From: Candidatus Gastranaerophilales bacterium
GTDB lineage: Bacteria; Cyanobacteriota; Vampirovibrionia; Gastranaerophilales; Gastranaerophilaceae
NCBI GenBank assembly: GCA_017461425.1
Contig: JAFTXY010000001.1
Span: forward strand, 1 to 64,000
Length of the DNA: 64,000 nucleotides
Direction of reading: 5' to 3'
In this document: one piece after another, positions 4,568-62,657 of the stretch
How the letters are laid out: each line of letters opens with the position of its first letter
Numbering within the stretch: the stretch's first letter is position 1
Program-made: the position numbers and the translations under genes
Notes under the pieces: model-generated
What the model saw: only the letters and a program-made list of their open reading frames with translations
The model's database searches: none
Told to the model about the DNA's origin: nothing

Positions 4568-7181
4568 AAATAGGCAAGCTATTTTCATAAGCAAAGTCTA
4601 AATACTCTTGTGGGATATCTTCAAAATGCTTAACTTTTGCAACAAGTGCATTAGGTTTAGATTTATATAAATTAGCTTCATTTTGAAAATGATTAACTAA
4701 TTTATTGCCCATATTTTTTATTAAATTTTTTAATTCAAAGCCATTAATAATTCTAAATCTTGTTTGATAAATATCATCATCACGCACTTGGGATAATGTT
4801 TTATAATCTGCAATAGATTTATAAATATCCGCATAGTCCCTACTTGTTATTCTTGCGCAACTCATAAAACAATCTGGTAAATATCTGCGATAATCACTCT
4901 CAGGATGATACATACCTCTTAAACGAGCATCACCTTTTCTTTTTCCTGAAAATTGATTAGTATAATACGAATTAACAATGTTTTCTGGTTTCACATCTAA
5001 ACTTAAGCCAAAAGCATAATTCTGATAAGTTTTCTTTTGAACCAAAGAAACATAAGATGCGCATAAAACAGAATTTACATCAAGTTCAGATAATCGCATA
5101 ACAGAATCTAGGTCTTTTTTAGAACTAGCCATATGAATAAAAAATCTTAAATTATCTTTTGTTGTATTAGGCTCAAAACCTATTTTCGCTAAATCTTCAT
5201 TTGATTTATAATCAGAAAAATTTATAACTTTGTATTTTCTTCCTTGATATTCAATTTCTGGTATTAATTGAGGTTTAACTATTTTTGAAGAAAAAAGTAC
5301 TTGCCCAGTTGAATTATATTTTTCAATCAATGCGGGGATTTTTGATTCTTTTGCATTTTTCAAATCGCTCACATGTGAATTATAAAATTTTTCATTAACA
5401 GCTTTTAAATCAGCATCTGTAAAAATACAAGCCAATTCAAACATATCTTTATTTTTTAAATCAAAAGCAATTTCTTCTTCGTTTTTTATTTTATTTGATA
5501 AATCCGCAAGCCAGTGGTGTTTTGAAATTAATTCAACAATTTGACTGCTATAATTTTTATTTAGGTTTAATTTTGATATTATTGCTTTTGCATAACTTGA
5601 AGAATTTATCGGATGAGAACTATCTTTTATAAATTCTTTTTTAGAAATATCATGTAATAATGCAGCAAATTTTAAAACGATTTTATTTTTATTTGTTTGA
5701 TTTTTATATTCTGGATTTTTTAATATATTCCTTAAAACCATAAAACTATGAATATCAAGGGTTTGTTTTCTATGTTGATGTTTACCAATAATATTAACAA
5801 ATTCAGGAACTGCTTTAATTAAAGAATTTATAATTTGATTAAATTCAAAATTATCGGTTAATATTTCATTATCATTAATAAATTTATTTGAAATTTCAAA
5901 AACTCTTTTTTCAATTTCATCATCTGTATTTAAATTATTTAATGCAATAACTCCATCATACCCAATTTTATCATCAGAACTTACAGGAGTAATCTCAAGT
6001 TTTTTATATATTTCTTGTTTTTTTATATCGTCACAGCTAGATAAAATTAAATTTAAATCTTTTAAATAATTTTCTCTTGAATATTTGAGAGGGAAACCAG
6101 TTTGTACATATTTCTCATAATCAAAATTGGCAATAGTTTTTTCAATTTTGGGATTATTGTTTGCCATAAAATTTTTCATAAATTCAGCAATTTTTATTTT
6201 ACTAACAGGAATTATAGTAATAGGATTTAGCAAAGAATAATGCAATTTTTCAAGGCATTTTTGCGTTCCAATTTTAGTTTGTTCATCATTTTTGAACCTA
6301 TTTTTATTATTTAAAAAATCTAAAAGCTCAAAATAAAGATTAATTTTATCTTCAATTTTATATTCTCTTAAATCAACATCTTTTATCTTAAAAAATTCAT
6401 TCAATAAAAAATCATACGGACCATACGAAAGTTCATCTTGAATATAATATTTATTATAAGATTTATCCTTAAAACCAAAAGCCTTATTATATTTATATAC
6501 TTCTTGAAAAATTGGCTTTATTTGTTTATATTCTGATGAATTTAAAATTTCATTTTTTTTACCACTTCTTAAAATATCTGCAATAATTCTTGGAGTAAAA
6601 ATTTCTTCTTTTGCTAATGTTTCAACGTCTTTTTTATCAAAATTATTTTCAATAATTTGTTTTGAAAAATACAAAGATTCATCAGGAGAAAAACCTCCAA
6701 AAGAAAATACTAACGAAGCTTGCAGAATTTCATTTTTAGGTATATTTTTAATTAAATCTGGTATTAAATCTGGTTTAAAACCCATATTTAAAAGTACAAC
6801 CGCAATATTATATTCATCATCAGACATTTGAAAAAAATCTTCATGGAAATTACTTGGAATAAATTTATGTTGCAAAAACTCATATCTATCATACAAGCCT
6901 CTTGATGCAATATCTTTTATTTTTTGATACATTGCATCATTATATCCAGCAAGCAAAGTTGCATTATCAATAGTTAAACCATAATCCAATAATTCCTTAA
7001 CCTTAAAAGGATATTCAATACTGGGATTATTTAATCTATTTTTAATTTTATCTTCATCACTAGAGCTCATTAAATCTTGTCTTAGAGAATTTGATAATTT
7101 AATTTTTTCAAATTTTAAACAAAGTTTATCTTTAATATTGCCCTTATATGATATTGGATTATTTTCAATTACATATTGCAT
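4551..7181 (-). CDS. Large HD-domain protein, function unknown
   Basis: This 876-residue cytoplasmic protein is not recognised as a named family. An HD phosphohydrolase core is visible in the middle: a conserved His at ~478 (DIHS), ALLHDISK at ~508, SHP at ~523 and KHHW at ~555. That pattern fits a metal-dependent HD domain like those attached to tRNA nucleotidyltransferases and HDc phosphodiesterases. No nucleotidyltransferase domain is present. The first ~450 residues are helical and repeat-like. Near the N-terminus is PISYKG, resembling a motif in the 903-residue protein at 9485-12196. The ATG at 7181 is preferred over a TTG at 7217; neither has a clear ribosome-binding site. Function is not assigned. 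Confidence 0.7.
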   Translation of the reverse strand: MQYVIENNPISYKGNIKDKLCLKFEKIKLSNSLRQDLMSSSDEDKIKNRLNNPSIEYPFKVKELLDYGLTIDNATLLAGYNDAMYQKIKDIASRGLYDRYEFLQHKFIPSNFHEDFFQMSDDEYNIAVVLLNMGFKPDLIPDLIKNIPKNEILQASLVFSFGGFSPDESLYFSKQIIENNFDKKDVETLAKEEIFTPRIIADILRSGKKNEILNSSEYKQIKPIFQEVYKYNKAFGFKDKSYNKYYIQDELSYGPYDFLLNEFFKIKDVDLREYKIEDKINLYFELLDFLNNKNRFKNDEQTKIGTQKCLEKLHYSLLNPITIIPVSKIKIAEFMKNFMANNNPKIEKTIANFDYEKYVQTGFPLKYSRENYLKDLNLILSSCDDIKKQEIYKKLEITPVSSDDKIGYDGVIALNNLNTDDEIEKRVFEISNKFINDNEILTDNFEFNQIINSLIKAVPEFVNIIGKHQHRKQTLDIHSFMVLRNILKNPEYKNQTNKNKIVLKFAALLHDISKKEFIKDSSHPINSSSYAKAIISKLNLNKNYSSQIVELISKHHWLADLSNKIKNEEEIAFDLKNKDMFELACIFTDADLKAVNEKFYNSHVSDLKNAKESKIPALIEKYNSTGQVLFSSKIVKPQLIPEIEYQGRKYKVINFSDYKSNEDLAKIGFEPNTTKDNLRFFIHMASSKKDLDSVMRLSELDVNSVLCASYVSLVQKKTYQNYAFGLSLDVKPENIVNSYYTNQFSGKRKGDARLRGMYHPESDYRRYLPDCFMSCARITSRDYADIYKSIADYKTLSQVRDDDIYQTRFRIINGFELKNLIKNMGNKLVNHFQNEANLYKSKPNALVAKVKHFEDIPQEYLDFAYENSLPIFILGK

Positions 7182-45986: not shown

Positions 45987-46832
45987 ATGGATAAAACATA
46001 TTTAATAGCATTACTATTATCTACTCTTGCCGGATTATCAACTGTTCTTGGCGGTTTTGTGACGTTTTTTATCAAAAAAAATTCACTAAAATTCTTATCT
46101 TTTGGACTAGGATTATCTGCAGGAGTTATGTTATTCATTTCTTTAGTTGACCTATACCCTCACGCAAATGAAATTATAGAAAAACAATTTGGCGAAAATT
46201 TTGCTTGGTTAACTATTTTATTTTTTGCAATTGGTATTTTAACAGCAATCCTTATCGACTATTTCATTCCAGACCATATTCAAGCGCAAATGTTTACAAA
46301 ACAAATTGGCGCAAATGAACAGCATATTGATAGTACCGACTGTATTGAAAATGAAAATGCGGTTATATCAATTGGAAAAATTAAAAAAGCAGGTATTTTA
46401 ACAGCAATCGTTGTAGCAGTTCATAATTTACCAGAAGGCTTGGCGACATTTTTTCTTACAACACAAAATGTCATGCTTGGTTTAGGTATAGTTATTGCAA
46501 TTGCAATTCATAATATCCCAGAGGGTATGGCTATTTCAATTCCTGTTTATCAGGCAACTCATTCAAAAAGAAAAGCTTTTCTGTACTCATTTTTATCAGG
46601 AATGGCAGAACCAATTGGTGGTATAATTGGATTTATCACAATAAAAACCTTATTCCCAAATCTTTGCACTGGTTTATTATTTGCAATAGTTGCTGGAATT
46701 ATGACATACATTTCCCTTGATACATTATTGCCATTATCAAAAGATTATGATACAGGACATTATTCTATTAGTGGAGTTGTTTTAGGTTTATTATTAATGG
46801 GATTTGCTCTTAGTATTTTACATGTTCATTAA
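45987..46832 (+). CDS. zupT: ZIP-family divalent metal transporter (ZupT-like)
   Basis: A 281-residue inner-membrane protein of the ZIP family, importing Zn2+ and often Fe2+ or Mn2+. About eight hydrophobic helices flank a His-containing cytoplasmic loop (~95-120). The two metal-site helices are explicit: VAVHNLPEGLATFF (~145) and IAIHNIPEGMAISIPVY (~175), each with the H-N-x-P-E-G signature, and SGMAEPIGG follows. The ATG at 45987 is chosen because the preceding nine codons contain the TATAAT (45975-45980). With no Shine-Dalgarno site and a -10 box six bases away, the message may be leaderless. The 3' end overlaps the convergent HNH gene by four bases. Confidence 0.9.
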   Translation: MDKTYLIALLLSTLAGLSTVLGGFVTFFIKKNSLKFLSFGLGLSAGVMLFISLVDLYPHANEIIEKQFGENFAWLTILFFAIGILTAILIDYFIPDHIQAQMFTKQIGANEQHIDSTDCIENENAVISIGKIKKAGILTAIVVAVHNLPEGLATFFLTTQNVMLGLGIVIAIAIHNIPEGMAISIPVYQATHSKRKAFLYSFLSGMAEPIGGIIGFITIKTLFPNLCTGLLFAIVAGIMTYISLDTLLPLSKDYDTGHYSISGVVLGLLLMGFALSILHVH

Positions 46833-47875
46833 TTTTTCTTTTTATATTTTGCCCATCTTTCATCAAACTCACGTACCATAAAAATAGCATCTTCTTGTGA
46901 ATATTTATAGCTAGACAAACTTATCAATATTCTTCCGTGTGATTCATCAAAAAGCTTTTGTTTTATTTTATACGGATATGTTTCATTGCCTTGCATAGAA
47001 CCATTATGTATTTGTTCTATAACGCAATCAATATAGTTTTGAATATATTGAGGAATCTTTGGATGTCTTTTAATATAATCGACTAATGGCATATTTTCTC
47101 TATATCTATTTCCACTAGCGCAAGTCAATAAAAAATTACCAATAGAATTAACACCGCCCAATGAAGCAGGAGTTATATGTTCTATTGTTCCTGTTGAAGC
47201 AATAAATAATCTTCTTGTAATTTCTGTTTGTGTTCTTTTTGAATATTTAACAATAAACGCATTTCTACTACTTTCAGAAGTAGGCAAAAACAAGGCTTTG
47301 TTTTTTATTTCAGCAAAAATTTCTTTTTCATTTTCTTTTGGAATAATCCCCTCTAGAGAATTTAAGAATATTTTTCGCTTGAAAAAATCTCTTTCATTAT
47401 CAGAAATAATTATTTGACGGCATTTTGTAGTTTTAGCTCTTAATTCTAAAGCTGTCTTAGTACATAATTTATGAGTTAATAAATCAACTTCATCCAAAAC
47501 CTCTAGTTCTTCTAATTTTAATTTCATAAGAGCATTTGTTCTAATCATCTCAAGACAATTTTTTAAATTATCATCTGGATTTATTTGAACAAAATCTTTA
47601 AAGATTGCATATATTTGTTTTTCTGTAGGCAAAAAATTATCATAATACATACTCAATAATTCAAATGCTTCATGTGCAACCTTGCATTTTGATAATTTTT
47701 TTTCAAAATCTTTTATTCCATCACTTGAAATAATTTTGATTCCACGATAAGGACAAACAATGTTTTTTAGTTTGCGCAAAGGTTTTCCAGCAGAGGTGCT
47801 ACCCTCGTATGGTATATCATAGTAATATTTCAAATAATCTTGTGGAGATATTTTTTTATTCTTACTTAATGGCAT
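46829..47875 (-). CDS. HNH-domain protein (putative nuclease)
   Basis: A 348-residue protein. The C-terminal third has an HNH-type signature, IEHITPASLGGVNSIGNFLL at ~231-250 followed by CASGNRYRENMPL, which matches the E-H-x-x-P-x-S-x-GG-x-N...N-R pattern of HNH endonucleases. An N-terminal CPYRG at ~41 resembles a zinc knuckle that has lost its second Cys. The middle is helical. AAGGCG before the ATG supports the start. It lies between zupT and tRNA-Val at the edge of the accessory region. A defence or homing role is possible but unsupported. Nuclease activity is inferred from the motif. Confidence 0.65.
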   Translation of the reverse strand: MPLSKNKKISPQDYLKYYYDIPYEGSTSAGKPLRKLKNIVCPYRGIKIISSDGIKDFEKKLSKCKVAHEAFELLSMYYDNFLPTEKQIYAIFKDFVQINPDDNLKNCLEMIRTNALMKLKLEELEVLDEVDLLTHKLCTKTALELRAKTTKCRQIIISDNERDFFKRKIFLNSLEGIIPKENEKEIFAEIKNKALFLPTSESSRNAFIVKYSKRTQTEITRRLFIASTGTIEHITPASLGGVNSIGNFLLTCASGNRYRENMPLVDYIKRHPKIPQYIQNYIDCVIEQIHNGSMQGNETYPYKIKQKLFDESHGRILISLSSYKYSQEDAIFMVREFDERWAKYKKKN

Positions 47876-48118: not shown

Positions 48119-48125
48119 ATGGTGG
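48109..48125. repeat. Left copy of 17-bp flanking direct repeat (attachment-site candidate)
   Basis: ACTGGGTTTTATGGTGG occurs here and again at 62677-62693, where it covers the CCA end of tRNA-Ile and the start of its terminator. The two copies are perfect, in the same orientation and 14.6 kb apart, enclosing both recombinase genes. The alternative is that both are members of one tRNA-terminator sequence family. Confidence 0.5.
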
Positions 48126-48184
48126 TAGCCGCTGTGGAGTTTGCTTCTGCCTTTCCAGATTTCTGAAGCATAAAAACACGGAAG

Positions 48185-48206
48185 TAACAGTGAATTAACA
48201 GTGAAT
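48185..48206. repeat. Tandem 11-bp repeat
   Basis: TAACAGTGAAT occurs twice back to back without mismatch, 60 bases inside the left 17-bp repeat. Short direct repeats beside an attachment core are typical arm-type integrase sites. That role is inferred from position. Confidence 0.5.
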
Positions 48207-48271
48207 TTTTCTTTTTTTGATAGCCTAAAGATAGAGTAATAGACGACAAAAGATATTCTTTTTCTCGCTAA

Positions 48272-48460
48272 TTAAGCAATTTTGGGGTATGGCTTAGCTA
48301 TGGAAAACGATTATTATTATTTCAAATTTATTTTATAAAAAATAGTTTACCAATAATTGATGCTAGTGCTTTATTTGTATTGACCCTTTTAATTGCAAAA
48401 AGTAAGCCTGATGAGATGGATGTTATGAAACAGATTGTGGTTAGCGTTTTAAATAAATAA
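48272..48460 (+). pseudogene. Coding remnant of a small membrane protein
   Basis: A 62-codon open frame without a usable start reads as a hydrophobic stretch (LLLLFQIYFIK, then ASALFVLTLLIAKS) followed by KPDEMDVMKQIVVSVLNK and a stop. The composition looks like protein-coding sequence rather than random AT-rich DNA. It may be the 3' end of a gene cut off by insertion. Identity is unknown. Confidence 0.3.
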
Positions 48461-48521
48461 TTTTATTTCATAGTAACTTTATTTTAAAAAGCTTAAAATT
48501 TTCAAAACTCAATTTCTGCAT

Positions 48522-48744
48522 ATTTAATTAAAAAATTAAATATGCGTTTTTGAAATCTTTTTTATTTTATTTTCAATTTTTCTTAAAAGCTCTTGTAAAT
48601 TTTTTAATTAAATTAAAAGAGGCTTTTAAAAGTTTCTAAAATTTTTAATTAAATCAAAGATTATTTTAAAAAAACTTATTTTGAAATTTTTAATTAAATA
48701 AAAAAATTAAATTTTAAAGTTGCAAGCAAAATTTTTAATTAAAT
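48522..48744. repeat. Iteron-like 13-bp repeats
   Basis: TTTTTAATTAAAT occurs at 48601, 48642, 48687 and 48732 (start positions), spaced 41, 45 and 45 bases. An exact reverse-complement copy is at 48522-48534, inside a larger palindrome (CATATTTAATT...AATTAAATATG). Spacing near four helical turns puts the copies on nearly the same face of DNA. The set ends 31 bases before the ATG of the first gene of the phage-like module. Possible roles are a replication or partition site or an operator array. Confidence 0.6.
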
Positions 48745-48775
48745 AAAAGTAGCAAAAAATAGAAAGGATAAAAAT

Positions 48776-49054
48776 ATGATTGAGAACTTGGATTCACTAA
48801 ACAAAAAATTTGCAGACATGAAAGTGCGCCACAATAGAGAAAGGGAACACATGGAAAAACAAATTGCACAAGAAAAAGAGCGCCAAAAGCGCGATCGCGA
48901 ACGTGAAAAAGCGAAAAAAGAAAAAGAAAAAACTTCTTACGATTATTATGTTGAAGAATCAAAAAACTACAAAGACCCGTTGCCCGAAAGGAAAATGACA
49001 CTAAGAGAGCTTATTAATGAATTGAAAAAATTGTTAAAGGAGGTTGAGTATTAA
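48776..49054 (+). CDS. Small highly charged coiled-coil protein
   Basis: A 92-residue protein preceded by AAAGGAT. Residues 10-55 are almost entirely charged (Arg/Glu/Lys) and form one helix or coiled coil. A short C-terminal segment, MTLRELINELKKLLKEVEY, is amphipathic. It is the first gene of a plus-strand module and ends one base before the methyltransferase start, so the two are coexpressed. It may be a phage structural or DNA-associated accessory protein; the family is not recognised. Confidence 0.6.
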   Translation: MIENLDSLNKKFADMKVRHNREREHMEKQIAQEKERQKRDREREKAKKEKEKTSYDYYVEESKNYKDPLPERKMTLRELINELKKLLKEVEY

Positions 49055-49055
49055 A

Positions 49056-50333
49056 ATGAAAAAATTAAACACGAACGATATTAAGCTAAGTGAAAAATTA
49101 AAATTAAACTTTTCACAAAACGAAATTGCAATTAGCGTTAAATTTATTAAAAAATTTGGACTAAAGATGCCAATTTTAATTAATACTGAAAATGAAGTTG
49201 TTGTAGGTGAGAATTTATTCTTGGCCTCGCAAGAACTCGGTTTAAAAGAAGTTCCGGTTGTTTACATTGAAAACTTATCTAAAAAAGAACTTAAAGCATT
49301 TAAAATTGCGTCAAAAAGAATCTTATCTTTTGGAGAATTTAATGAAGAAGAGTTGAAATTTGAACTAAAAGATTTGCTCTTAGATGTAAATTTTAATTTT
49401 GATTGTGAAGAGCTTGGTTTTACTTCAATCGAGTTTGATAACTTACTTTTTGTTGATGAAATTCAAGAAACAAAAGAAAAAGAAGAAAAACTCGAGTTAA
49501 ACAATATCAAAGAGCTTGTTAAATATGGTGACATTATTCAGCTTGGTAAGCACAAATTATTGTGCGGCGATTCATTGAATCCAAAAACTTATGAAGCATT
49601 AATGGGCGAAAAAAAGGCAGATATTATAATTTCAGACCCGCCCTACAATCTAAAAATCCAAGGTAACGTTACTTCAAGAAGCTACCACAATGAATTTCAA
49701 AATGCATCTGGCGAAATGAGTGAAATTCAATTTCAAACATTTTTGAATAACGCATTTAATAATGTAAAAGATTTTTCAAAAGAAAACTCCTTACATTACA
49801 TATTCATAGATTGGCGCCATTGCCTTGATTTGCAGCTTGCATTCAAAGATATTTATCCAAAACTTTTAAATGTCTGCATTTGGGATAAAACAAAAGCAGG
49901 AATGGGTTCTTTTTATCGAAGTCAACATGAATTTTGTTTTGTTTATCAAAATGGAAGCGGAGCATATTCAAATAACATCCAGCTAGGCAAAAATGGCAGA
50001 AATAGAAGTAATATATGGCAATATCAAGGAATGAATTTATCAACTAAACAAGCAAATAAATTAGGTAAGTTACATCCAACTGTTAAAAGCACTGCAATGA
50101 TAGCTGATATTATACTAGACACCACAAAACAAGGTGATTTGATTTTGGATAATTTTGGTGGAAGTGGAACTACTTTAATTGCAGCCGAGCAAACAAATAG
50201 AGTTGCAAATTTAATTGAAATTTCACCAAGTTATTGTGATGTAATTATTTACCGTTGGGAAGAATTAACAGGACTTAAGCATACCAAAATAGGGAGAATA
50301 AAATATGGCGAAGAAAAAGAAAAGCAAGAGTAA
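49056..50333 (+). CDS. ParB-like/DNA methyltransferase fusion protein
   Basis: A 425-residue protein. Residues ~1-130 look like the ParB/sulfiredoxin-type N-terminal domain found on phage methylases (LKMPILINTENEVVVGENLFLASQ with a VGE-x-x-x-A core). Residues ~155-420 are a beta-class amino-methyltransferase: DPPYNLK at 194-200 precedes the SAM motif NFGGSGTT at ~366-373, and a GKLHPTVKS stretch lies between. The class methylates adenine N6 or cytosine N4. Phage copies often act as orphan methylases that protect or regulate. No restriction enzyme is adjacent. AAAGGAGG lies 12 bases upstream of the ATG. Confidence 0.87.
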   Translation: MKKLNTNDIKLSEKLKLNFSQNEIAISVKFIKKFGLKMPILINTENEVVVGENLFLASQELGLKEVPVVYIENLSKKELKAFKIASKRILSFGEFNEEELKFELKDLLLDVNFNFDCEELGFTSIEFDNLLFVDEIQETKEKEEKLELNNIKELVKYGDIIQLGKHKLLCGDSLNPKTYEALMGEKKADIIISDPPYNLKIQGNVTSRSYHNEFQNASGEMSEIQFQTFLNNAFNNVKDFSKENSLHYIFIDWRHCLDLQLAFKDIYPKLLNVCIWDKTKAGMGSFYRSQHEFCFVYQNGSGAYSNNIQLGKNGRNRSNIWQYQGMNLSTKQANKLGKLHPTVKSTAMIADIILDTTKQGDLILDNFGGSGTTLIAAEQTNRVANLIEISPSYCDVIIYRWEELTGLKHTKIGRIKYGEEKEKQE

Positions 50334-50787
50334 TTATAAAATTGGCTACAAAAAACCACCTGAAGAATGTAAATGGAAAAAGGGTTGCAAAAGCCCTAAT
50401 CCAAAAGGCAGACCTAAAAAAATAACAAGCATCAAGGAAGCTTTGCAGGTCAACCTTGGTAAAGAAATTTCATCAAAAAATGAAAATGGTGAGACTTGCA
50501 AAATTTCTTGCGCTGATGCTTTGGTTAAAAAAACACTTGCCGATGCAATTCAAAAAGATGGACCAACAAGAAGAATGCTATATAGGCTTGATTTGATGAA
50601 TTTGCAAGCAAAAGAGCAGGAATTTGAATACGATGAAAATCAAGAAAATTTAATCAAATTTGAGAAAAAATATCAGGACTTTATAAAAACTTGGGCGAAC
50701 ACCCCTGATAATTTAACTGAGATTGCTACAAAAATATTTAGCGAAATTTTACGCAATCAAATAAACAAGCAAGCATATGATAATTAA
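50305..50787 (+). CDS. DUF5681-family phage-associated protein
   Basis: A 160-residue protein with the signature of DUF5681: a basic N-terminus leading to CKWKKGCKSPNPKGRPKKIT (family form F-K-G-S-G-NPKGRP). A helical region with KTLADAIQKDGPTRRMLYRL follows. Members usually sit just before the large terminase in prophages and gene-transfer-agent-like clusters. No terminase follows here, so the module looks truncated. It overlaps the methyltransferase gene by 29 bases, with GGGAG upstream of its ATG. It is followed by a strong terminator. Confidence 0.75.
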   Translation: MAKKKKSKSNYKIGYKKPPEECKWKKGCKSPNPKGRPKKITSIKEALQVNLGKEISSKNENGETCKISCADALVKKTLADAIQKDGPTRRMLYRLDLMNLQAKEQEFEYDENQENLIKFEKKYQDFIKTWANTPDNLTEIATKIFSEILRNQINKQAYDN

Positions 50788-50908: not shown

Positions 50909-51142
50909 TTAAATTTCAACAATAAACCAACTTGAATTACTTAGATGGTTAAAGTTCCATTGCAAATTAAAATAAAAGTCATTCTCTAATTCAGCTTTGT
51001 TTCTTTTTAAATATAGCTTTTTATTTTGCTCGATTTTAATATAAGCAAAAAGCGCATCTTGGATTTCGTTATAATATTTTTCAAAAAATTCCTTTTGGCT
51101 CAAGCTTAATTTTTCCATTGTTCTTTTGTTTTGAATTATCAT
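50909..51142 (-). CDS. Small protein of the phage-like module, function unknown
   Basis: A 77-residue protein on the opposite strand to its neighbours. The ATG has a near-perfect Shine-Dalgarno sequence (AAAGGAGGTAAG), which argues it is real. It is helical and aromatic-rich (FEKYYNEIQDALFAYIKIEQ; NLQWNFNHLSNSSWF) with no signal peptide. Position and size fit a small phage regulator or accessory protein. No family is recognised. Confidence 0.55.
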   Translation of the reverse strand: MIIQNKRTMEKLSLSQKEFFEKYYNEIQDALFAYIKIEQNKKLYLKRNKAELENDFYFNLQWNFNHLSNSSWFIVEI

Positions 51143-51273: not shown

Positions 51274-51594
51274 ATGAAAGAAAATAGTTATCAAATTAAA
51301 ATTAATAATTGGCATAAAAAATATGGTCAATTTTCAAAACCAATACAAGATAAGTTAAAACAATTGGTTGAAGATTATGATAAAAATCAAGAAATCAATA
51401 TAAATAAAAATGCAATCAAAATTACGCCAGGTACAAGAATAATTAGAGAATACAAAGGCAAGAAATATAGCATAACAGTATTGGTTGATGGCTATGAATT
51501 TGAAGGGAAAGAATATAAGACACTAACTACAATTGCAAATAAAATAACGGGCACAAAATGGAATGGCAAAAAATTCTTTGGAGTAAATCAATGA
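51274..51594 (+). CDS. DUF2924-family protein
   Basis: A 106-residue protein. The C-terminal half matches the DUF2924 pattern: PGTRIIREYKGKKYSITVLV, then GYEFEGKEYKTLTTIANKIT and GTKWNGKKFFG. DUF2924 genes typically precede serine recombinases in proteobacterial prophages and are thought to be accessory DNA-binding proteins. The ATG at 51274 has AAAGGAT upstream and is preferred to an earlier in-frame codon. Its stop overlaps the recombinase start as ATGA, so the two are translationally coupled. Confidence 0.8.
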   Translation: MKENSYQIKINNWHKKYGQFSKPIQDKLKQLVEDYDKNQEININKNAIKITPGTRIIREYKGKKYSITVLVDGYEFEGKEYKTLTTIANKITGTKWNGKKFFGVNQ

Positions 51595-53156
51595 AAAAAG
51601 TAAGATGCGCTATTTATACAAGAAAATCAACTGAAGAAGGACTTGAACAAGATTTTAATTCGCTAGATGCTCAAAAAGAAGCGTGTCTATCATATATTAA
51701 TTCTCAAAAACACGAAGGTTGGGTTTATGTTGATAAAGAATATAATGATGGCGGGTTCTCTGGTGGGAATATGGATAGACCTGCTTTTCAAGAACTTTTA
51801 AAAGACATCAAAGAAAATAAAATTGATATCGTTGTTGTTTATAAAGTTGATAGGTTAACTCGCTCTATTATGGACTTTGCAAAAATCATTGAAATTTTTG
51901 ATTCTAATAATGCAAGCTTTGTTTCGATAACTCAGCATTTTAATACAACAACTTCAATGGGGCGGTTAACTTTAAACATCTTGCTTTCATTTGCTCAATT
52001 TGAAAGAGAAGTAACGGGCGAAAGGATAAGAGATAAATTTGAAGCATCAAGAAAGAAGGGTCTTTGGCTGACAGGCAACGCGCCATTTGGATATTTAATT
52101 GATAAACATCACGTTTTACAGCCAATTCCAGAGCAAGTTGAAATCTTGAATTATATTTTTGAAACATATTTAAAACTAAAAAGCGTTATGAAATTAAGAA
52201 GATTTTTAATTGAAAAGAAAATATTAAATGGATTTAAGCGAAATTTTTCAAAAGGCGGATTATATAATATGCTTCAAAGCAAGGTTTATTTAGGAAAAAT
52301 CGTGTATAAAGATAAACTTTATGAAGGCTTACATGAAGCTATTGTTGATGAAGAATTATTCAATAAAGTTCAAGAACAATTAAGGCAAAGCGCTTATGAA
52401 TCAAAATATAAAATAAATGTAAAACATCCTTCTTTGTTGTCAGGCATTTTATATAATGAAAAAGATTTTAAAATGACAACAACATCAAGCAGCTCAAAAA
52501 CTAAAAAATATCGTTATTATCACATTGAAAGCAAAGAGCTTGCGAAAAAAGGAAAAATCAATAAAATTTCTGCCGGCGAAATTGAAGAATTTACTAAAGC
52601 AAAATTAAAAGAATTTATTGAAAATATTATAAATAATAAAACTTTTGAAACTATATTTATTAAACAAAAAATTGAAGTTCAAAATGATATTTTAGAAAAA
52701 ATTAAAAATATAAAAATTGACAACGTTCTAATTTTAAAATCAATTCCAAAAATCCAATTAAAATTAGATGAAATTATAATTCACTATGACTTGGCTGCTA
52801 TTTTTAATTACTTAACTGGATTAAATTTTGAAGCTGAAAGTACACAAAATTATATCTATGAAGAAGTTTATGATGCAAAAGTTTCAACCATAAAACAAAT
52901 GAAGAATAAAATAATTTTAGCTAATAAAAGAAGATATAATGAAAAGCTGATTCAAGCCATTGTTAAAAGTTTTTGGTATAACGACTTGGGTGCACAGGGC
53001 AAAATGACAGCTGAAATTCGAAATGGAAGCTGTAAGAAGGTAAAGAACTTGAGGTTTTTACCAAAAGATTTGATTGAGGATATTTTAAACGGCGTTCAAG
53101 ATCCTGAGTTGAATATTAATAGATTAATTAAACAGGGAGAAAAAACTATGTTGTAA
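51591..53156 (+). CDS. Large serine recombinase
   Basis: A 521-residue site-specific recombinase. The N-terminal resolvase domain has the catalytic Ser in YTRKSTEEGLEQDFNSLDAQ (Ser13), the DGGFSGGNMDRPAF loop, VYKVDRLTRS and QFEREVTGERIRDK. The recombinase domain with GNAPFGY follows. The zinc-ribbon region SGILYNEKDFKMTTT lacks the Cys pairs of phage integrases, as in DUF2924-associated relatives. A helical C-terminus completes it. It would integrate, excise or invert the module. The 3' end overlaps the convergent ABC-exporter gene by 11 bases, so the element's right end lies at or inside that gene's end. Confidence 0.93.
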   Translation: MKKVRCAIYTRKSTEEGLEQDFNSLDAQKEACLSYINSQKHEGWVYVDKEYNDGGFSGGNMDRPAFQELLKDIKENKIDIVVVYKVDRLTRSIMDFAKIIEIFDSNNASFVSITQHFNTTTSMGRLTLNILLSFAQFEREVTGERIRDKFEASRKKGLWLTGNAPFGYLIDKHHVLQPIPEQVEILNYIFETYLKLKSVMKLRRFLIEKKILNGFKRNFSKGGLYNMLQSKVYLGKIVYKDKLYEGLHEAIVDEELFNKVQEQLRQSAYESKYKINVKHPSLLSGILYNEKDFKMTTTSSSSKTKKYRYYHIESKELAKKGKINKISAGEIEEFTKAKLKEFIENIINNKTFETIFIKQKIEVQNDILEKIKNIKIDNVLILKSIPKIQLKLDEIIIHYDLAAIFNYLTGLNFEAESTQNYIYEEVYDAKVSTIKQMKNKIILANKRRYNEKLIQAIVKSFWYNDLGAQGKMTAEIRNGSCKKVKNLRFLPKDLIEDILNGVQDPELNINRLIKQGEKTML

Positions 53157-54921
53157 TTTTTGATTTTTTAAATTGCATATCATATAGTGCTTTATATTGC
53201 CCATTTTCTATTTGTATTAATTCGTCATGCCTGCCAAGCTCAACGAGCCTTCCTTCGTTAATAACGGCAATTCTATCAGCATTTTGAATTGTTGAAAGCC
53301 TATGTGCAATTACAAAAACTGTTTTATCTTTCATTAGGTTATCAATTGCCTTTTGAACAATAGCTTCTGATTTATTATCAAGCGCAGAAGTGGCCTCATC
53401 CAAAATAACAATTGGTGCATTCTTTATAAAAGCTCTTGCAATTGCCACACGTTGTTTTTGCCCACCTGATAAAAGAATTCCTCTTTCTCCAATTTGAGTA
53501 TCTAAACCTTTTTCTAATGTAGAAATAAATTCATCTAAATATGCCATCTTTAAAGCATTATTAATTTCTTCTTCGGTTGCTTCTTGTTTGCCTAATAAAA
53601 TATTTTCTCTAATTGTTCCTGAAAATAAAAAATTATCTTGGAAAACAACTGATATATTTTGCCTTAAACTCTCTAAAGTATACTCTCTAATATCTATGCC
53701 ATCAATTAAAATGCCACCTGATTTTACATCATAAAATCTTGGAATTAAACTTACAATTGTAGATTTCCCGCCACCAGAATTTCCGACAAATGCTATAGTT
53801 TCGCCTTTTTGAATGTCTAAATTAATATTATTTAAAACCAATTTGTTTTTAACATATTCAAAACAAACGTCTTTTATTTGAACATTATTTTTAATACCTT
53901 GTAATTCAATTGCATTATCTTTGTTTGTAATTTTAGGTTTTGATTCCAAAACGCTAAATACGCGCTCAATTGCCATAAAAGACATTTGAACAGCATTAAA
54001 ATTATTGCCTAAATTTTTAATTGGGGTATATAGCATAATTAAAGCCGTGATAAAAGAAACAAAGTTACCGCTTGTGATTTGCTTTGTTAATATCAAGTGA
54101 GAACCATAACCAATAGCTAACCCTATTCCAATTGACACAATTACGTGCATCATCGGAGAAAGCCAACTTGTCCTTTGAACCATTTTTATTCTTAATTTAA
54201 ATATATTTCCCAAAATATCTTTAAATTTATTTTCTTGTAACTTGGCAAGGTTATATGAAATAATAGTTTTATTTCCTGCGAACGATTCATTATAAGCTGT
54301 AATTACGGCACTGCCAGCTGTTACTGATTTATCCATAACAGATTTAATTCTTTTTCTTATATTTGCCAATGGAGCGAAAGCACACCCTAATACAACAATT
54401 GCAATTAATGCCAGTTGCCAAGAATTATAAAATAAAACCCCAATTAACGATAACGAAGAAAACAATCTAGATGTAAATGTTTTTAAATTTTCCAATAAAC
54501 CATTACAAGCTGATTCTGCATCATTATTAAATCTAAAAACTATGTCTCCTGATTTCTTCTTATCAAAATATCCGGTTTCAAATGTAAGCATTTTTTTATA
54601 AAGAGAAAATTTTAAATCGTTTGTAATTTTCCCGCCTACCCAAGTATTTAAATATGTTGCAAGATAATTTAATCCTCCTTGAACGCTTGTAAAAGCAACA
54701 ATTCCAAAAGGAATATACCAAGGAGATTCAACTGTTTTTTCAACCATAACTAAATCCATATATGGTTTTAAAGACAACGCTATAACAGCATCTAGTGAAC
54801 CAATTGGAATACAAACCAACACTGCCAACAATGCTCTAAACCAATATGGTTTTACATAAGGAAGTATTTTTGAATAATTTATATATGCTTGTGTTTGCTT
54901 AATTTTATCTATTAAAATCAT
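53146..54921 (-). CDS. msbA: MsbA-like ABC exporter
   Basis: A 591-residue half-transporter with an N-terminal six-helix membrane domain (~20-330) and a C-terminal ATPase. Walker A is GNSGGGKST (~382), the Q-loop VFQDN, the signature LSGGQKQR (~487), Walker B VILDEATSALD (~511) and the H-loop IAHRLST. MsbA homodimers flip lipid A core or other glycolipids across the inner membrane; related exporters carry peptides or drugs. The polysaccharide gene upstream on the same strand favours a glycolipid substrate. AGGA six bases before the ATG supports the start. The C-terminal tail after YDMQF is only eight residues, and the gene end abuts the recombinase. Confidence 0.9.
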   Translation of the reverse strand: MILIDKIKQTQAYINYSKILPYVKPYWFRALLAVLVCIPIGSLDAVIALSLKPYMDLVMVEKTVESPWYIPFGIVAFTSVQGGLNYLATYLNTWVGGKITNDLKFSLYKKMLTFETGYFDKKKSGDIVFRFNNDAESACNGLLENLKTFTSRLFSSLSLIGVLFYNSWQLALIAIVVLGCAFAPLANIRKRIKSVMDKSVTAGSAVITAYNESFAGNKTIISYNLAKLQENKFKDILGNIFKLRIKMVQRTSWLSPMMHVIVSIGIGLAIGYGSHLILTKQITSGNFVSFITALIMLYTPIKNLGNNFNAVQMSFMAIERVFSVLESKPKITNKDNAIELQGIKNNVQIKDVCFEYVKNKLVLNNINLDIQKGETIAFVGNSGGGKSTIVSLIPRFYDVKSGGILIDGIDIREYTLESLRQNISVVFQDNFLFSGTIRENILLGKQEATEEEINNALKMAYLDEFISTLEKGLDTQIGERGILLSGGQKQRVAIARAFIKNAPIVILDEATSALDNKSEAIVQKAIDNLMKDKTVFVIAHRLSTIQNADRIAVINEGRLVELGRHDELIQIENGQYKALYDMQFKKSKITT

Positions 54922-59474: not shown

Positions 59475-60017
59475 TTAAAGAATGAAGTTTGAATAACTTT
59501 CATCAATTTGGTCTTGTTCTATCCCAATATATCTTAAAGTTATCTGTGGGCTTGAATGATTAAATATTTTTTGAAGCATAGCTACGTCTTTGAATTTTTG
59601 ATAATGATGATAGCCGAAAGTTTTCCTTAACGTATGAGTTCCGACATGTTCTTCTAGGCCAGCTTCCGCGCAGGCTTCTTTTATTATTCTATAAGCACTA
59701 AATCTATCTAATCTATTTTGAAATTTTGATGTAAATAATGGCTCATCTAATCTTTTGCCTTTAATATGTTCTTCAAACATCGGCATTAATTTTGAATTAA
59801 TTGGAAATTTTTTAAATTTGCCAGTTTTTTTCTCTGTAATCTGAATATGAGTTTTTCCTCTAACATCTTTTACGTTAAGTGCCACAATATCTGATATTCT
59901 TAGTCCGCAATTTGTCCCGATTGTAAAAAATAGAGCATTTCTCATATTTTGGCGCATTAAAATACTTTCAACCTTTTTAATGTCCTTTAACTTTCTAATG
60001 GGTTCAACAGTAGTCAT
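59475..60017 (-). CDS. Short tyrosine recombinase (catalytic domain only)
   Basis: A 180-residue phage-integrase-family protein with all catalytic residues: Arg40 in CGLRISD, the beta-hairpin Lys in TEKKTGK, His128/Arg131 in THTLRKTFG, His154 in FNHSSPQ and the nucleophile Tyr163 in TLRYIG. It lacks the N-terminal core-binding and arm-binding domains of full integrases, a form seen in many Firmicutes and mobile islands. The ATG at 60017 with AAAGGAG upstream is chosen over an earlier in-frame codon. It follows the CD-NTase gene on the same strand after an 87-base gap containing a 10-bp dyad. It could mobilise the CBASS segment. Confidence 0.9.
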   Translation of the reverse strand: MTTVEPIRKLKDIKKVESILMRQNMRNALFFTIGTNCGLRISDIVALNVKDVRGKTHIQITEKKTGKFKKFPINSKLMPMFEEHIKGKRLDEPLFTSKFQNRLDRFSAYRIIKEACAEAGLEEHVGTHTLRKTFGYHHYQKFKDVAMLQKIFNHSSPQITLRYIGIEQDQIDESYSNFIL

Positions 60018-60044
60018 ATTTTCTCCTTTCATACTTTGTGCAAC

Positions 60045-60073
60045 ATATAACAATATAATAAAAATTGTTATAT
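60045..60073. promoter_or_regulatory. 10-bp dyad between CD-NTase and integrase
   Basis: ATATAACAAT (60045-60054) and ATTGTTATAT (60064-60073) are perfect inverted repeats around a nine-base spacer, 28 bases upstream of the integrase ATG. It could be an operator for the integrase gene or a weak terminator for the CBASS genes. No T run follows, which favours the operator reading. Confidence 0.5.
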
Positions 60074-60104
60074 TACTTGGTATGATAAGAGATGTGTTAA
60101 ATAA

Positions 60105-61427
60105 TTAACGAATGTTGACTATAATTTCATTGCTTTTGCCGATACATTTTTCATCTTGCACGGCAAATGCTTGAACTATGTGTGAACCACGATATGCTGT
60201 TGTTTCGGTCCTTATTAATTTTGAACTTCCGTTTGAATCCACATATCCACCCCTCAGACATTTGCTATCAGCCGCGCTTTTACCTGTATTTGTAATTTGC
60301 CATTTTATTTCACAATTATTTGCACATTGTTCGTTAATGTGTGCTTTAAAAAACAATTGTGCGCATTTGTTAAGTAATTCTTGTTTATAATCATAGCGTT
60401 TTGATGCGTTTTTGTTGTTTGAATATTTTGCTTTTATTTCGAATTGAATTTTGTTAGTAAATTCCCATGGTAATTTTTGTCTGTGATCTAATGAGCCATG
60501 CTCAAATAGCTGCTTATTCTTAACAATACAAATCCTATCACCAAATAATTCATTTAAAAGTGAATTGCGAATATTTTCTTGGATACCATCTTTATTTAGT
60601 TCTTTTGTAATTTCTTGTTGTTTTTTAATGAATTCAATTACCTTTTCTTTATCAGAATAATCTTTTTCACTCCATAAATCTTCATTGGTTGTTGGTTTTA
60701 ATAAAGGTTCATTGTTTTCCATTTTATTAATTATTTTTACCAAAAGTTCATCTAATGTTGTTTGATCATATTGATTAAGTTGTATGTTTTCCAATGCATT
60801 ACAACAAAATAATGTTATTTCAAACCCAGATAATGGTATTTTAGTTTCGTTTTTGTGGCAGTAATTATCTTTTATTGCCTTTAAGTAAACTATCATTTTA
60901 GTTAAAACTTCGCCATATTTTTTCTTGTGTTCTAAATAAAATTGTGTATTTTTTAAAGGATCGCTTTTAATCCATCCATCCTTAGTTGCAAGGTAGGGAA
61001 TTCCATCTTTTTGAAAGTTTTTGATATAAATTGGAAAATCTATATGATAATTATTTGCATACACTACTCTTATACAATTCTTTTTGTCGATTACAGTTCT
61101 GTTGTATGCGCTACAGGCGTCTTTTAAAATCTTATGAGCTTTTTCTGGTGTTGGCCAAGAATCCATATTGTCATAATCAATATCTTTACAATCAAGATAA
61201 ACACCATCATCAATATCAAATTCATCATTCAATGGTTTTATTGTTGTTCCCATAGCCATAGAACCTTGTATATAAAACTTGGGAATGTTGTATTCGTCTA
61301 AATCTTTAAAATATTTTTTTATATTTTCTCTGATGATGTTTCTAGAATTTCTTAAATCATTTTTTTTGGATTCTGACAATTTTATTTTTTTATAATACTC
61401 AACCATTAAATTATGCGTTTTGTTCAA
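60105..61427 (-). CDS. CBASS CD-NTase with C-terminal AGS-C-type sensor domain
   Basis: A 440-residue cGAS/DncV-like nucleotidyltransferase that would make a cyclic oligonucleotide on phage infection. The polymerase-beta fold signature is clear: QGSMAMGT (Gly55-Ser56), the metal ligands in DEFDIDDG (Asp71, Asp73) and the third Asp in YHIDFPIYI (Asp130). The C-terminal ~120 residues (ANNCEIKWQITNTG, CLRGGYVDS, ETTAYRGSHIVQAF, GKSNEIIVNI) match the AGS-C sensor-domain pattern described for SMODS nucleotidyltransferases. The start is TTG, supported by AAAGGAT; an unsupported ATG lies at 61406. It overlaps the effector gene by 17 bases. There are no Cap2/Cap3 or HORMA/TRIP13 genes, so the layout is type I. 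Confidence 0.87.
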   Translation of the reverse strand: MNKTHNLMVEYYKKIKLSESKKNDLRNSRNIIRENIKKYFKDLDEYNIPKFYIQGSMAMGTTIKPLNDEFDIDDGVYLDCKDIDYDNMDSWPTPEKAHKILKDACSAYNRTVIDKKNCIRVVYANNYHIDFPIYIKNFQKDGIPYLATKDGWIKSDPLKNTQFYLEHKKKYGEVLTKMIVYLKAIKDNYCHKNETKIPLSGFEITLFCCNALENIQLNQYDQTTLDELLVKIINKMENNEPLLKPTTNEDLWSEKDYSDKEKVIEFIKKQQEITKELNKDGIQENIRNSLLNELFGDRICIVKNKQLFEHGSLDHRQKLPWEFTNKIQFEIKAKYSNNKNASKRYDYKQELLNKCAQLFFKAHINEQCANNCEIKWQITNTGKSAADSKCLRGGYVDSNGSSKLIRTETTAYRGSHIVQAFAVQDEKCIGKSNEIIVNIR

Positions 61428-62388
61428 TTGTTATCCTTTCCTTAAAAATATCTTGAATAAATGGTGAATTTTTTAATGCAACTGCTGTAGAATGACCTAT
61501 GTTAACTAATGTATTTAGCGTTTTTTCGTTCGCATCATCCAATTTAATATTTTGAATATGGCCTAATGGTTCTGCTCTAAAATAATTTTCAGCCAAGATA
61601 AATTCTGCAATATGGTTGTTGATTTGAGTTGTTGCATGTAATGTTGTTTCAATAAGTTCTTCGCCCCATCCTGTTAGAAACCCTCTTCTTGGCTTTGAGT
61701 CTGCTTTTTTGCGAAATTTGCTTTCAGTTGGAATCGAAAGCATTTTTATTTCTTTTACATTTTTTTGAAGATGTTTAACTGCTTCTGTGATTGCGCAAAC
61801 CCCTGGATTGTTTGCAAAAAGACCCCCATCGCAAAAATATTCTTTAGAATCTGTATTTGGTTTGGATATACCGCAAGTTTTAAAATATGTAGGAGCTGAA
61901 GAACTTGCTAATGCAATATCACATAGTTTGTATGTATTGTGTTCGTTAAATTCTTTCTTGTAATCTGTTTTAAAAATCCTTGTTACCAATGGACCAGATA
62001 AATTCGTTGCTGGAATTATAATGTATTTGTTGTTATTCATAACATCTTGAACTGTCTTTTGTTTAAATATTTGCTCTAAGCTTCTTTTTAGGTTATTAGC
62101 ATTGTGTTTAGCGAATAAAATATTCCATAAAGATGGTTTTTTTGTAAAAATTTTGGGACCAATATCCTGATAAAATTTTTGAATTTCTGAAGCAGTCATA
62201 CCAGAAGCTAAACCCAGGGCTATAATTGAACCAGTACTTGTACCAGCAAACATATCAAAAATATCTGTACACTTTACATTAAATTCCTGTTCAAGTTTTG
62301 CTAAAAGTGAAATACTGAATAATCCTCTAATCCCACCGCCATCCAAACTTAAAATTTTAAAAGTTTCATTTTCTTTTTTTGCTTCCAT
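61411..62388 (-). CDS. CapV-like patatin phospholipase, CBASS effector
   Basis: A 325-residue patatin-family lipase. The oxyanion motif DGGGIRG is at ~16-22, the nucleophile elbow GTSTG at 49-53 (Ser51), and the dyad Asp in CDGGLFANNP at ~187. In CBASS, CapV proteins are switched on by the cyclic nucleotide and degrade the inner membrane, killing the infected cell. Coupling with the CD-NTase directly downstream identifies it as the effector. The ATG at 62388 follows GGGGAG and is preferred to one at 62412. It is the first gene of the operon and lies 300 bases from tRNA-Ile. Confidence 0.9.
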   Translation of the reverse strand: MEAKKENETFKILSLDGGGIRGLFSISLLAKLEQEFNVKCTDIFDMFAGTSTGSIIALGLASGMTASEIQKFYQDIGPKIFTKKPSLWNILFAKHNANNLKRSLEQIFKQKTVQDVMNNNKYIIIPATNLSGPLVTRIFKTDYKKEFNEHNTYKLCDIALASSSAPTYFKTCGISKPNTDSKEYFCDGGLFANNPGVCAITEAVKHLQKNVKEIKMLSIPTESKFRKKADSKPRRGFLTGWGEELIETTLHATTQINNHIAEFILAENYFRAEPLGHIQNIKLDDANEKTLNTLVNIGHSTAVALKNSPFIQDIFKERITIEQNA

Positions 62389-62657
62389 ATAGCTCCCCTT
62401 GTTGGACTTCATGTTTATTTTATATTTATTTTTTAAAAATATTAGCTAAATTAACAAAAAATTAATTATTTTTCTAATAAAGCTCGATTTTTAGATCGTT
62501 TTTGTATGCAAAAAACCTACAGAGATAGTGCCCATGGACCTTTTAATTGCATTCGGAGAATTTGGCATATAATCGAGCATATCTGTCGTTAATTCTCCAA
62601 ACTAAATTTCTCCCAACCCCTAAACTCCCGCGCTGCGTGGGGAAAAATGGCAAAAAT
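62389..62657. other. Gene-free stretch between CBASS and tRNA-Ile
   Basis: No gene is seen. There is an 8-bp inverted repeat (GGAGAATT and AATTCTCC about 30 bases apart, within 62550-62605) and a short GC-rich patch near 62625-62645 unlike the AT-rich surroundings. The CBASS promoter should lie at the left end, but I see no convincing hexamer pair. Confidence 0.4.

Follow-up and report, generated by a model that had tools for sequence, protein, structure and literature searches.

Multi-site operators of phages and mobile elements and silencer-bound AT-rich promoters form a general class of control region, and iteron-type replication origins carry several direct repeats of about 17-22 bp. Elements that combine a serine recombinase with such an origin have been described as well. 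Repeat 3 of the origin of the PLE satellite is bound by RepA (PMC7145576), and the origin of SCCmec is located downstream of cch2 and is accompanied by direct repeats (PMC7581432).

In the 64,000-nucleotide stretch of DNA analysed here (the window), several near-identical short boxes are found directly 5' of a mobile-element operon, as in the multi-site operators and silencer-bound promoters. Unlike the multi-site operators, the array comes without a cognate regulator that we could find, its boxes are nearly free of G and C, and it is out of helical phase. The element shares with PLE a serine recombinase and semi-palindromic direct repeats in a non-coding region, and with SCCmec a related kind of recombinase and direct repeats that adjoin element genes. 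However, PLE encodes its initiator RepA (PMC7145576) and the short SCC repeats are read by an encoded helicase (PMC7581432), whereas neither an initiator nor such a helicase was found in the window module. Our literature searches yielded no paper on the array or on DUF2924-recombinase elements in this bacterial order. The pattern is real, but of an ordinary kind.

Composition of the array

The original prediction described four direct copies and one inverted copy of a 13-mer, TTTTTAATTAAAT. An exact search recovered all five at the positions given, the direct copies at 48601, 48642, 48687 and 48732 (steps of 41, 45 and 45) and the inverted one at 48522-48534. The features of the region are:

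48517..48546, +, terminator-like hairpin with an AT-rich stem, followed by T-rich DNA; includes the inverted copy 48522-48534
48598..48617, +, Box 1, AATTTTTTAATTAAATTAAA, one mismatch to the consensus box
48639..48658, +, Box 2, AAATTTTTAATTAAATCAAA, no mismatch to the consensus box
48684..48703, +, Box 3, AAATTTTTAATTAAATAAAA, no mismatch to the consensus box
48729..48748, +, Box 4, AAATTTTTAATTAAATAAAA

Although the 13-mer itself is genuine, both the repeat finder and the alignment show that the conserved unit is longer, namely a box of about 20 bp (AAATTTTTAATTAAATNAAA); the repeat finder reported a 22-nt family with four copies, at 48597, 48638, 48683 and 48728. When the four units were aligned, 19 of the 44 columns were invariant, and all except one of these fell inside a single 20-column box, AA-TTTTTAATTAAAT-AAA. 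The longest invariant run spans 13 columns, a length that was reached in none of 20,000 column permutations of the alignment. The linkers, in contrast, resemble each other no more than shuffled sequences do (six comparisons, p 0.11-0.73), so that the layout is one of boxes interleaved with unrelated linkers of 21-25 bp. Each box is centred on a 10-bp palindrome, TTTAATTAAA, and the boxes contain no G or C save at one variable position, within a local 316-bp stretch of 13.6% GC (about 87% A+T).

The composition bears directly on the main rival explanation, according to which the array is a functionless, decayed AT-rich tandem repeat with a period of about 41-45, generated by slippage, in which the 13-mer was kept by chance. 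Tandem Repeats Finder indeed fits a 41-bp unit to 48583-48704, with 2.8 copies, 75% matches and 10% indels, and the small sample together with the AT-richness keeps such an origin alive. A plain minisatellite would repeat the whole unit with evenly spread divergence; here, despite the gapped 41-bp unit at 75%, identity is confined to the box and the linkers look unrelated. Under even decay (overall invariance 0.43) a run of 13 has a probability of about 0.0003, and less at the rate of the linkers. We regard a decayed repeat as rather unlikely, yet as the strongest of the alternatives.

The spacing was predicted to be near-constant at four helical turns. The steps of 41, 45 and 45 stand, but at 10.5 bp per turn they correspond to 3.90, 4.29 and 4.29 turns; the four boxes do not lie on one face of the helix and strict phasing is absent, which weakens the argument for cooperative binding along one face. 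Regularity of the spacing by itself is mildly unusual (p 0.012).

The inverted copy is present exactly, and constitutes one arm of the hairpin at 48517-48546, which has a 13-bp stem, a folding energy of -11.6 kcal/mol and a z-score of -4.65, with none of 200 shuffles equally stable. The core TTTAATTAAA reads the same on both strands, so that the orientation of the 13-mer means little, and the inverted copy, which had been counted as a member of the array, adds little to it. To judge from its sequence, the hairpin is terminator-like and may serve whatever stands to its left. A PHROG search with the 54-aa frame to the left of the array gave no match.

At the other end, 31 bp separate the 13-mer core of Box 4 from the ATG of the first gene, ORF1, with a ribosome-binding-like GAAAGGA in between. 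A promoter scan returned 16 sites against 17.5 in shuffles, with the boxes directly 5' of ORF1. Two further ideas on the array were rejected. Intrinsic curvature is not a feature of it, as a wedge model shows it to be no more curved than the window is on average, and an RNA structure common to the units is not indicated, as the leftmost unit alone beats its shuffles (z -2.22; others -0.28 to 0.52).

Occurrence within the window, the genome and related genomes

Chance does not account for the four-copy cluster. In 20,000 dinucleotide shuffles of the local 316 bp, four non-overlapping copies of any 13-mer never occurred, in agreement with the prediction that the array is non-random; 48 shuffles contained three copies, and 3 contained a 12-mer in four separate copies. 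These counts exclude simple-sequence words and overlaps and we regard them as the fair ones; a cruder count that retains both gave at least four copies in about 5% of 5,000 shuffles, owing to runs of A and T. The window as a whole contains 7 copies of the 13-mer, including 2 singles at 6745 and 44285, where 100 shuffles averaged 0.38 and never exceeded 2. Nowhere else in the window do three separate copies of one 12-mer fall within 300 bp, and the array also has the highest tandem-repeat score of the window (119). An additional 100 kb of the same contig held one other such place, a 21-bp repeat.

Across the 1.45-Mb genome (77.7% complete) the 13-mer is found 19 times, 5 times at the array and 14 times elsewhere, none of the 14 lying within 300 bp of another copy. 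The reversed control pattern has 3 copies in the genome. The isolated copies are near background, as the shuffle mean of the window scaled to the genome gives about 9. The 20-bp box behaves differently: its three exact occurrences in the genome are all in the array, as are 4 of the 5 places with at most one mismatch, while with up to two mismatches 13 places compare with 7 for the control. The genome-wide count that had been proposed as a check thus revealed scattered singles of the 13-mer, yet a box that occurs exactly at the array only, which is not the picture of a common and irregularly spaced word. The two 2-mismatch boxes of C10 (both inside a coding frame) and the 1-mismatch box of C8 (inside an 89-aa frame) were discarded as candidates for additional binding sites.

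The other proposed check, conservation in related elements, turned out negative. In the regions 5' of the methyltransferase operon of 12 related modules, among them those of G174 and G217, which are nearly identical in sequence, the best match to the box is at shuffle level (p 0.10-0.81), and conservation of the spacing can hence not be demonstrated. As the nearest relatives are only about half identical in protein, this comparison has little power to date the origin of the array. Scans of other loci did not find one either, a search with 48121-48775 gave no similar DNA in plasmids or phages, and Rfam at a lax threshold returned only matches far below the family cut-offs. The array is private to this copy of the element, a point in favour of a decayed repeat.

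In 289 genomes the paired pattern was found in 2, the own genome (three pairs) and G026 (a single pair). Three contigs in the genome collection, which all belong to Methanobrevibacter or Methanovirga, have the triple pattern, and no viral contig has it; records from the genome of the window may be left out of this search. Other arrays with a period of 30-60 and a score of at least 90 were not present in 184 loci (933,119 bases), apart from three Methanobrevibacter-type contigs; these loci overlap, include the array of the window eight times, and the three archaeal contigs had been fetched for matching the pattern.

The archaeal contigs carry long, near-perfect AT-rich arrays of 39- and 46-bp units with the same 13-mer (L116, 1964-2295; L117, 1247-1454; L118, 2381-2644). 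The presence of similar motifs as plain tandem repeats in these very AT-rich archaeal contigs speaks for a decayed repeat in the window too. The likeness lies in the 13-mer, which recurs there in intergenic DNA at steps of 39 or 46 bp; unlike the window array, however, these arrays repeat the whole unit at 92-96%, and the organisms are unrelated.

The mobile module downstream

The array precedes a three-gene operon (ORF1, the ParB_N-methyltransferase and the DUF5681 gene), which belongs to a mobile module with a DUF2924 gene and a large serine recombinase:

48776..49054, +, ORF1, encodes a charged 92-aa protein without a family; its one clear homologue is in a like module of G182
49056..50333, +, ParB_N-like domain fused to an N6/N4 DNA methyltransferase (N6_N4_Mtase 1.3e-31; phrog_498 6.7e-96)
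50305..50787, +, DUF5681 protein (7e-15)
50909..51142, -, 77-aa protein of a widespread small family, present in 47 of 193 genomes of relatives
51274..51594, +, DUF2924 protein (1e-27)
51588..53156, +, large serine recombinase, overlapping 3' end to 3' end with an ABC transporter gene (53146-54921, -)

Relatives hold the same gene set in varying order. G008 and G056 have the gene order of the window, and ORF1 was not detected there; in G182 the ORF1 homologue (38% identity) is located after DUF5681. ORF1 had no match among the 145 other genomes of one set and three among the 382 of another; the match in G182 alone convinces, as the remaining two hit a long unrelated protein. The methyltransferases of G416, G385, G174 and G217 are about 35-66% identical by BLAST. 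In G174 and G217 the methyltransferase is split over two or three frames, and a short charged frame occupies the position of ORF1, without a significant BLAST match to it.

A partition site, to be bound by the ParB_N-methyltransferase as a ParB-type protein, had been proposed on account of the ParB-like domain in the second gene. A ParB_N match is there, and the N-terminal part has several PHROG ParB-like matches. The match (2.1e-5, 24.9 bits) is nevertheless below the Pfam cut-off of 26.3 and covers residues 17-81 only, methyltransferase sequence starts at residue 189, and the DNA-reading central domain of ParB is missing. As only this N-terminal part is matched, and as 48121-48775 contains no parS-like site at four mismatches or fewer, partition is disfavoured; the scanned module proteins also lack a ParA. 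We give this proposal almost no credence.

A replication site had been proposed as well. It would be an iteron-type origin that is used after excision, for which the host or a helper phage supplies the initiator. The direct-repeat layout and the four 20-bp boxes suit such an origin, and serine-recombinase elements with iteron origins exist (PLE, PMC7145576; SCCmec, PMC7581432), so that the idea keeps some weight. The evidence from the module itself points the other way: Pfam, PHROGs and NCBIfam revealed no initiator, primase or helicase among the scanned module proteins, the only DnaA-like site in 48121-48775 has one mismatch and lies beyond the array, at 48299, and the 12 related modules lack the box 5' of their methyltransferase operon. 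An origin is in our opinion improbable.

Alternatively, the serine recombinase or a directionality factor could use the array as an accessory site or attachment end. It lies close to the presumed non-recombinase end of the element, with an integration-end-like repeat at 48178. Against cassette-chromosome and XisF models the recombinase scores below the respective cut-offs (CcrB model 7.1e-38, also sub-cut-off). The overlap of its stop codon with the end of the ABC transporter gene suggests that this is the right end of the element. The left end was not found, nor was an empty site, as the ten stretches around the transporter gene from relatives contain no tRNA. Moreover, short att sites are normally all that serine integrases require. 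We consider a recombinase site very improbable.

A possible control region for the methyltransferase operon

Three features fit a multi-site, protein-binding control region: the place of the array 31 bp before the first start codon, its alternation of boxes and linkers, and the near-absence of such an array elsewhere in the genome. We tentatively favour, at somewhat less than even chances, a multi-box operator or silencer-type binding array that controls the ORF1-methyltransferase-DUF5681 operon. The four boxes would be occupied by a small DNA-binding protein, dimeric or AT-preferring and encoded by the element or the host, which would repress or silence transcription of the operon from a promoter within or beside the array, while the upstream hairpin might insulate the operon from read-through originating on the left. 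We infer that a protein binds, that it represses or silences, and where the promoter lies. Control is preferred over an origin because no initiator was found, because the one-mismatch site at 48299 is the only DnaA-like site near the array, and because an element that is integrated can do without its own origin.

The cooperative operator that was originally predicted thus emerges as the best reading, with its weak points in the poor helical phasing and in the binder: Pfam, PHROGs and NCBIfam recognised no DNA-reading regulator domain among the module proteins. Further points against an operator are the shuffle-level matches in the relatives, the only mildly unusual spacing, and the AT-rich DNA, in which slippage generates repeats.

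As to the small proteins of the module, the 77-aa protein has a confident structural model (pLDDT 93), for which no fold match was found in the PDB; its family shares an invariant WNFNH. The DUF2924 protein has a weak RAMA-like match (E 0.0084, below the cut-off), and the fold search with its model gave no match with an E-value below 0.4. One could imagine a methylation switch, in which the adenine methyltransferase of the element would mark A/T-only sites in the boxes (e.g. TTAA in TTTAATTAAA, a hypothetical target), and a reader, possibly DUF2924 with its RAMA-like part, would sense the marks and switch the operon upon entry into or exit from the cell. We deem such a switch extremely improbable.

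Should the array be an operator, it would offer a defined handle on how mobile elements of one small but recurring, methyltransferase-carrying family are silenced in a bacterial order that has been little studied, and would provide a first cis-element to set against DUF2924, whose function is unknown and whose gene stands ahead of the recombinase gene in these modules. A neutral AT-rich repeat would be of little importance.

Putative defence genes and other side observations

The more interesting side finding is the cargo of the DUF2924-recombinase elements in relatives. The DUF2924-serine-recombinase pair adjoins type I restriction genes in G037 (L143, 7112-15269), and a type III-like methyltransferase and a DrmD-like helicase in G042 (L148, 1523-9590). 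On the basis of these neighbours, the recombinase module seems to carry varied defence cargo.

The window itself holds, at 59475-62412 (-), a tyrosine recombinase (Phage_integrase) and a CD-NTase (SMODS, DncV-like, AGS_C) with an adjoining patatin-like phospholipase, a CBASS-like defence pair. At 46829-47875 (-) a 348-aa protein with weak HNH endonuclease matches is encoded beside a tRNA-Val. Finally, the sequence ACGGAANTAACA, with direct repeats nearby, adjoins terminator or tRNA ends in three genomes (window, 48178; L155, 1555; L162, 7194) and is possibly an integration end.
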